Shown here piece by piece: positions 12,274-12,520 of a DNA stretch of 64,000 nucleotides (position 1 is the first letter of the stretch; each line of letters starts with the position of its first letter). The notes beneath the pieces are model-generated. The model saw only the letters and a program-made list of their open reading frames with translations, was not told the origin of the DNA and did no database searches. The stretch spans positions 43,170 through 107,169 of the IMG/VR virus record IMGVR_UViG_3300047510_000583; one strand, written 5' to 3'. Made by a program: the position numbers and the translations under genes. The stretch comes from a virus.

Positions 12274-12312
12274 TAGGTTTCTCCTTAGTTTTTTAGGTTA
12301 AAGAGCGTTCCT

Positions 12313-12469: not shown

Positions 12470-12520
12470 GAACGATCCGTTCCGAGTCGGCTTACTTCCG
12501 TCCCAAAGGGATGAACGTAT
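12470..12520 (-). promoter_or_regulatory. glutamine riboswitch-like RNA (glnA / downstream-peptide type)
   Basis: On the minus strand, CGTTCATCCC-TTT-GGGACGGAAGTA, then AGCCGACT and CGGAACG. This has the P1 strands CGTTC/GAACG, the P2 hairpin TCCC/GGGA and the near-invariant CGGAAGTA core of the glnA/downstream-peptide RNA class, which binds L-glutamine. It ends about 10 bp before the ATG at 12465. The 3' half departs from the usual GAAGGAACGC. Confidence 0.7.

Follow-up and report, generated by a model that had tools for sequence, protein, structure and literature searches.

A cyanophage glutamine-riboswitch relative with nested halves and a small gene apparently embedded in its sensor fold

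What does a short glutamine-riboswitch-like motif on the minus strand of a viral DNA do directly ahead of a small open reading frame? A sequence-only reading of the window, the whole 64,000-nucleotide stretch analysed here, had placed at this locus a P1 helix, a P2 hairpin and a glutamine-type core in front of a 50-codon ORF. The letters it named are all present. Minus-strand 12517-12474 reads CGTTCA-TCCCTTTGGGA-CGGAAGTA-AGCCGACTC-GGAACG and then enters a second CGTTCA, with CGTTC at 12517-12513, the P2 hairpin TCCC-TTT-GGGA at 12511-12501, the core CGGAAGTA at 12500-12493 and GAACG at 12482-12478.

The glutamine-I model of Rfam (glnA RNA, RF01739) matches minus-strand 12519-12474 over its full length (1-53 of 53) with 34.3 bits, just below the gathering score of 35. 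The E value is 6.5e-6 for the 341 bases searched and 4.9e-7 for the whole 107,169-base virus record, in which this is the sole match at E <= 0.001; a scan of the 64 kb at the gathering threshold does not list the glutamine motif. The glutamine-II model (Downstream-peptide RNA, RF01704) reaches 18.0 bits under a cut-off of 33. Among 14 other loci scanned, three exceed the RF01739 gathering score (L064, 38.1 bits; L048, 36.0; L122, 35.6) and one, P-RSM6, exceeds the RF01704 cut-off with 33.1. Chance is not a sufficient explanation for the motif, given that hundreds of cyanophage sequences contain this element.

The motif is just the front of a 213-nt element (minus strand, 12517-12305) that extends from the first P1 strand to the pocket base past the last P1 strand and that is supported by the nested consensus fold of ORF-free relatives. 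P1 strands, P2 and the CGGAAGUA core of glutamine-I are found in the front half; a local P3 hairpin followed by GAAG and a P1 3' strand is not found at this locus. The aptamer parts absent from the front half, namely the loop-E strand GAAG and a GAACG directly after it, are supplied by the stretch on the far side of the ORF, ATAGA-CGCAAA-AGCCGACT-GAAG-GAACG-C (12333-12305). Behind P2, the outer core contributes the loop-E strand AGUA and a third base that pairs with the outer-pocket C at 12305, and is followed by the first P3 strand AGCCGACT (12492-12485). The sequence continues with GGAACG-GAT-CGTTCA-TCTAT. Here GAACG, the triloop GAT (12477-12475), whose G makes the inner pocket pair, and CGTTC (12474-12470) form an inner hairpin, and TCTAT (12468-12464) pairs with ATAGA (12333-12329) beyond the ORF. 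After ATAGA come the inner core CGCA (12328-12325), the second P3 strand AGCCGACT (12322-12315), the loop-E strand GAAG (12314-12311) and the outer P1 3' strand GAACG (12310-12306), which pairs with the first CGTTC some 200 nt upstream.

In ORF-free relatives such as S-PM2 and S-CREM1 the same ends surround a short hairpin, TTCGCTA...TAGCGAA, which identifies the ORF as an insertion into the loop of another P2-type hairpin, P2'. This ORF, referred to here as ORF2, occupies 12465-12313 on the minus strand. Its start codon overlaps the 5' strand of P2', which includes the AU, and its stop codon lies at the junction of P3 and loop E, where the last T of the P3 strand opens the TGA that the GA of GAAG completes. 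The P1 strands and the 50-codon ORF of the sequence-only reading thus exist, but the first CGTTC most likely pairs with the distal GAACG and not with 12482-12478, and the ORF lies within the aptamer and not behind it. The window motif is a real glutamine-riboswitch relative tied to a small ORF in a cyanophage; it is not a simple leader, since what was taken for its target ORF belongs to the sensor. In the conventional sense, its downstream target is instead a DUF4278-like gene of 52 amino acids at 12273-12115, preceded by the ribosome-binding site AAGGAG (12286-12281).

The same strand carries a 28-codon ORF (MNWLNLIRRQ..., 12118-12032) that overlaps the end of the DUF4278-like gene, and a terminator-like hairpin, GGGGGCAT/ATGCCCCC plus a T run (12025-12004), read directly in the sequence. 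The neighbourhood is a cyanophage tRNA cluster of 13 tRNAs, within which lies a wcaG RNA (13861-13761, 92.9 bits). Directly before the first CGTTC, several loci (L005 4335-4365, L013, L047, L089, L102 and others) have a TATAAT-like box flanked by inverted repeats, for example AGGTC-TATAAT-GACCT, GAGGT-TATAAT-ACCTC and GAGA-TATAAT-CTC; the window has TATTGTATA...TATACAATA at 12559-12518. These repeats are possibly an operator over a promoter or a 5' hairpin.

Relatives were collected by scanning IMG/VR with an aptamer pattern, by three scans with parts of the element and from ten phage regions. A strict parse gave at least 193 distinct elements and a wider parse at least 287 distinct elements from 312 loci. 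Inserts of ORF size (above 100 nt) occur in the P2' loop of 232 of these elements, in the P2 loop of 66 and in both loops of 52. Among twenty named phages that we chose from BLAST hits, all twenty parse as the element, 18 have ORF2, and three (Syn9, S-CAM1 and S-TIM5) also have an ORF in the P2 loop, ORF1, so that the model phage Syn9 contains two embedded ORFs. In ten of these phages the position of the element is between nrdB and talC, and the isolated phages that carry it include Syn9, S-SM1, S-RIM2, S-TIM5 and P-SSM7. A tblastn search with an ORF2-like query returned 313 phage records, all of them named Synechococcus phage, Prochlorococcus phage or cyanophage. In cyanobacterial genome contigs, none of the loci among the matches listed (117 stretches, obtained with too loose a pattern) parsed as the element.

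Other RNAs were seen in these collections. A manA RNA lies between the element's operon and talC in P-RSM6 (L129 2462-2647) and P-TIM40 (L131 2478-2672). Three loci (L402, L297, L330) show a half element, CGTTCA-P2'(ORF)-CGCA...GAACG, and a first half is absent from the bases viewed. On the reverse strand of L111, from 5693, an ordinary glutamine-I aptamer has a P3 loop of about 90 nt with a short ORF (19 codons, counted by eye), and ORFs may thus also have been inserted into P3. Many single glutamine aptamers in viral contigs (L062, L024, L006, L002, L057 and others) stand upstream of diverse short ORFs (YRG, MNRFDHL..., MSWTDYC... and others), which represent little-explored riboswitch-linked phage microproteins.

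The four P1-type strands follow one another as CGTTC, GAACG, CGTTC and GAACG, and can pair either in tandem (first with second, third with fourth) or nested (first with fourth, second with third). Among 279 elements having all four strands, strands 2 and 3 have changed jointly in six, to GCAACG with CGTTG, while strands 1 and 4 remained unchanged. The subset of 147 elements first obtained with queries that leave strands 1-3 free contains 141 GGAACG/CGTTC, six GCAACG/CGTTG and no mixed form. After a scan aimed at the changed pair, GCAACG/CGTTG is present in at least 38 of 306 elements, among the matches listed. CGTTC and GAACG are kept outside in 32 of these 38; three have the outer double change CGTTT/AAACG (L540, L551, L644), two have CGTTC with the distal strand GAACA (L596, L606), and in one no first strand was located. 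L551 is closely related to L644, with 51 of 54 ORF2 residues alike, and L540 shares 27 and 24 of 54 with them. The two mixed forms of strands 2 and 3 occur in 34 and 48 stretches of IMG/VR, which are all the matches there, and none of these is the element. On a FastTree tree of 251 ORF2 peptides the state of strands 2 and 3 requires at least 19 changes, a rough figure given peptides of about 50 residues each.

RNAalifold, run on 40 of the 55 ORF2-free elements, found the nested outer P1, P2, the inner hairpin and P2' unaided; P3 was not returned from the same 40. For the nested structure, counted with P3 and the pocket pair, this alignment shows 15 pairs changed on both sides, compared to 8.2 in shuffled alignments, and 98 double-change cells compared to 26.0. 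For the tandem structure the figures are 7 pairs compared to 4.5 and 62 cells compared to 15.9, every one of them within P2 or P2', which both structures contain. Because P1 is nearly constant in the 40 elements, the evidence on P1 itself comes from the joint strand changes, the scans for mixed forms and the pocket pair. Support for the nested P1 comes from a minority of the relatives, its strands being almost invariant.

Predicted folding energies were compared for those 213 of 287 elements whose P2 does not exceed 60 nt, and the nested energy lies below the tandem one in 40/40 and in 171/173 of them. Unconstrained minimum free energy (MFE) structures of the 279 contain the outer P1 in 258 cases, the inner hairpin in 214, the first tandem unit in 12 and the second tandem unit in none. 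The window sequence itself (L121) folds more weakly than most: its designed nested fold has -9.3 kcal/mol, its tandem fold -6.1 kcal/mol, and its unconstrained MFE structure does not include the inner hairpin. The arrangement of the tandem class, in which both aptamers are complete and have a P1 and a P3 of their own, is not found. Comparison across the family makes a nested architecture with an embedded gene very probable.

We examined whether the pockets agree with this arrangement. According to the available text of PMC6698751, the pocket helix in the glutamine-II crystal structure is capped by a long-range pair, which the third base of the CGC strand makes with the base that follows GAACG; an equivalent pair exists in glutamine-I. 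The outer pocket pair with its nested partner, the base after the distal GAACG, is present in 287 of 287 elements (249 C-G and 38 G-C), compared to 250 of 287 with the tandem partner; no query had both of its sides fixed. In 97 ordinary aptamers from 88 fetched loci, many of them retrieved with CGG fixed, this pair is G-C in 96 and G-U in one. The inner pocket pair, between the C of CGCA and the base after the proximal GAACG, is present in 284 of 287, the base being absent in three, so that the CGCA half has the C19:G41-type pair of glutamine-II. Both pairs are present in the window's sequence. The A6:C17 contact is replaced by G:U in seven of 279 elements; L343, L364, L389, L390, L399, L198, L291 and L313 read CGTTCG...TGCAAGTA where CGTTCA...CGCAAGTA is usual, so that G:U stands for A:C at this position. 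The RNA seems, from these base patterns, to hold two interlocked glutamine pockets.

P3 is formed by the strand after the first core and the strand before GAAG. It occurs as AGUCG/CGACU, AGUCA/UGACU, AGCCGACU/AGCCGACU, AGCCGACG/CGCCGACU, AGCCGACA/UGCCGACU and other versions, and its statistics refer to the 184 of 193 strict-parse elements with the two standard lengths. In the long form, which the window has, the variable pair 8 is paired in 77 of 77 elements (T-A, A-T, G-C, T-G) compared to 41.9 in shuffles, and positions 3 and 6 are mostly C-A or A-C mismatches, with standard pairs in 2 and 15 of 77. The variable pair of the short form is paired in 107 of 107 compared to 102.2. For P2' with an ORF, pairing was counted in the strict-parse set, where it was not required. 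Pairs 3, 4 and 5 form in 154, 153 and 139 of 154 elements compared to 135.9, 103.7 and 100.0 in shuffles, and pairs 6 and 7 do not exceed the shuffled values in these 154. Pairing of P2' in the 287 set was left out of the evidence because the wider parse demanded a stem of four. The compensatory changes in these helices support the nested fold. The loop-E strand is AAAG in 126 of 287 elements; in ordinary aptamers it is GAAG in 97 of 97.

The embedded ORFs are bound to fixed structural positions. The ATG of ORF2 lies 3-5 bases into P2' in 226 of 232 elements, its stop codon, mostly GAC-TGA or GAC-TAA, takes a constant structural position in 221 of 232, and this stop is in frame with the AUG in 227 of 230; some of the queries fixed ATG or GACTGAAGG, and none fixed the frame. 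In the named phages the stop is off its usual place in two of 18, S-SRM01 and S-CAM1. The interior of ORF2 has a median dN/dS of 0.21 (503 pairs of equal length and 60-97% identity), and its coding nature is supported by these comparative measures. The frozen codons at its 3' end were not counted, because CGCA was fixed by the parse and GACGCA or GACT by some queries. The inner hairpin bears a ribosome-binding-like GGAG in 145 of the 232 ORF2-containing elements and in none of the 55 that lack ORF2 (Fisher p 2e-20). In the commonest form this GGAG stands 10 nt upstream of the ORF2 AUG, where the window reads GGAT.

ORF2 is a phrog_504-related small protein: the profile matches the window's copy with E 0.0022, and 59 of 60 chosen members. 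The 60 rows of the alignment, taken from 109 representatives with long or divergent ones left out, have two invariant cysteines. For ORF1, which occupies the first P2 loop, 37 of 38 chosen members match phrog_6471, and two cysteines are likewise invariant in the chosen rows (38 of 45, the excluded ones being mostly other, divergent ORF1 types). The ORF1 stop codon lies at either of two positions in 55 of 66 elements, the P2 3' strand (30) or the core AAGTAA (25). A Pfam search gave no convincing family for either protein. AlphaFold models are short, with two helices for ORF2 (pLDDT 78.9) and three for ORF1 (pLDDT 79.5), and a Foldseek search of the ORF2 model against the PDB returned nothing at E <= 0.001.

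The downstream gene carries a YRG or YRK motif, by which we called it YRG (DUF4278-like), in 255 of 261 assessable elements, 26 of the 287 being not assessable. The window's copy scores 21.4 bits with PF14105, under the Pfam gathering score of 25.3 (E 0.00033), and matches phrog_5049 with 2.9e-9. DUF4278/IF17 genes are described as targets of glutamine riboswitches acting as ON switches in the accessible parts of PMC6316151 and PMC6698751. We folded 264 leaders having a recognisable ribosome-binding site with and without P1. The site is paired in both states in 123 (22 of them using P1) and free in both in 73; it is freed in 40 and closed in 28 when P1 is taken. No uniform switch at the downstream ribosome-binding site is therefore seen across these 264 leaders. 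In the window (L121) the MFE of the leader goes from -7.3 to -1.7 kcal/mol once P1 and base 12305 are taken, with the ribosome-binding site still paired. This modelled shift would suit an ON switch, in a family that is inconsistent on this point. We also considered the hairpin GAACG-GAT-CGTTC as a simple expression platform; it exists, but it is the inner hairpin of the larger fold.

Taken as a whole, these observations are best explained by a composite glutamine riboswitch with interlocked halves and an embedded gene, a reading that we regard as likely. Its outer half would be built as in glutamine-I, from P1 (first CGTTC with last GAACG), P2, the core CGGAAGTA and loop E. Its inner half would be a circularly permuted pocket made of the proximal GAACG, the triloop, the inner CGTTC, P2' and CGCA, and one long-range P3 would be common to both. 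The small gene would sit in the P2' loop: its start codon would belong to P2', the inner hairpin would contain its ribosome-binding region, and it would end at P3 and loop E. L-glutamine would bind both pockets and stabilise the nested fold, which would conceal the start and ribosome-binding region of ORF2 and turn ORF2 OFF at high glutamine. A ribosome on ORF2 that reaches the stop codon would unfold the sensor, so that the two states would be mutually exclusive. The DUF4278-like gene would be turned ON by glutamine, as known for the glutamine-riboswitch class. That the element binds glutamine is quite probable; the reciprocal OFF/ON logic is only slightly favoured.

A sharper version of this explanation is that P1 exchanges strands. 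Without glutamine the first CGTTC would pair with the proximal GAACG and leave the ORF2 ribosome-binding site open; with glutamine it would move to the distal GAACG, and the inner hairpin would close over the site. The P1 strands are identical in 273 of 279 elements, so that either pairing can form; it is the proximal one that Rfam recognises in the window, and GGAG sits in the region that would be exposed. However, the GCAACG/CGTTG elements tolerate the loss of one of the five base pairs of the proximal pairing, and the first tandem unit, which is this pairing, is rare in the MFE structures. We hold strand exchange to be possible but doubtful.

The fold could also have been kept for another purpose, such as translational coupling, mRNA stability or a protein-binding site, with glutamine sensing lost. 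The AAAG version of loop E and the three elements that lack the inner pocket base would fit such a loss. Against it, the outer pocket pair is kept without exception across its C-G and G-C versions, A6:C17 is swapped for G:U, and the downstream gene is of a known target type, which makes a loss of sensing improbable.

A further alternative is a pseudo-cooperative doublet of two ordinary glutamine aptamers, each with its own P1, the second with an ORF in its P2 loop. Such tandems are common, with 157 doublets and 4 triplets counted in the accessible part of PMC9481103, and in viral contigs we observed ordinary ones (L058, L069, L081, L103, L107) in which each half has its own GAAG and GAACG and other small ORFs lie downstream. 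In addition, cmscan splits the ORF-free S-CREM1 element into two adjacent RF01739 matches of 33.5 and 20.4 bits, both below the cut-off, and the double changes in the 40-element alignment also exceed shuffles for the tandem structure, all in helices that both structures share. Nevertheless, the inner and outer P1 double changes are compatible with nested pairing only, the pocket pair and the energies favour the nested partners, the second tandem unit never appears in an MFE structure, and P3 and loop E link both halves in the ORF-bearing form; a doublet is thus very unlikely. That a single ordinary glutamine-I aptamer at 12517-12474 stands before a small ORF and the remainder is incidental, as originally proposed, would agree with the Rfam match in the window but is hardly credible, being strongly contradicted by the P2' ends, CGCA, P3 and GAAGGAACG conserved beyond the ORF in many relatives and by the same ends around a short hairpin in ORF-free versions.

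Riboswitches are usually seen as untranslated leaders, whereas here the start, ribosome-binding region and stop of an ORF are built into the ligand-binding fold. In its most complete form, the composite reading says that hairpin loops of a metabolite aptamer are themselves protein genes. A pair of glutamine pockets, one in circularly permuted form, would share a helix and hold up to two genes whose start and stop codons lie within the sensor, translation and folding would exclude each other, and the result would be a reciprocal switch with a DUF4278-like protein, widespread in T4-like cyanophages, the embedded genes being so far only hypothetical proteins. To this full statement we give an even chance. 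If true, it would be a compact way for two proteins to depend oppositely on one metabolite, and would give a regulatory setting to hypothetical small ORFs with relatives in 313 phage records. We infer, as did the earlier reading, that the phage may sense host nitrogen status through the element; if so, it would provide a testable handle on how a lytic cyanophage reads that status. The presence of the element in isolated phages makes it directly testable. The role of the class in phages was said to be little studied, which is in part superseded: the available texts of PMC9964418, PMC9602691, PMC9004378 and PMC10665884 already report glutamine riboswitches in phages, including those of the T4-like cyanophages S-CREM1 and S-H34 (PMC9964418, PMC10665884). 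In the open-access literature, most subscription papers being outside this scope, we found no publication in which an ORF is placed within a glutamine aptamer.

With the glutamine-I riboswitch the element shares P1 (CGUUC/GAACG), P2, the core with loop E, the pocket pair and a DUF4278-type target. It differs in that P3 is long-range, its loop holding a second, permuted pocket and a whole gene, and in that the 3' half in the window is about 180 nt away, with a score around the Rfam cut-off. With glutamine-II it has in common the CGUUCA-hairpin-CGCA strand, the GAACG+G pocket, the link to a short ORF and the occurrence in marine cyanobacteria; in contrast to that class it has no PK with a P2 of its own behind it, its inner half presents the pocket strands in permuted order, and the short ORF lies inside and not downstream. 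Tandem glutamine riboswitches likewise have a pair of pockets that share one ligand upstream of a single gene, whereas here the pockets are nested and P3 is common to both; the tandem survey, in its accessible part, took only cases without an intervening ORF (PMC9481103). The wcaG and manA cis-regulatory RNAs of cyanophages, wcaG in the window itself, are structured RNAs of the same phages that belong to other Rfam families. Group I introns also carry ORFs in peripheral loops of a structured RNA, and share with the element a protein gene in such a loop; the element differs from them as a small RNA of the metabolite-sensor type, with small proteins that match no Pfam family. It is thus a new architecture within a known kind of riboswitch.
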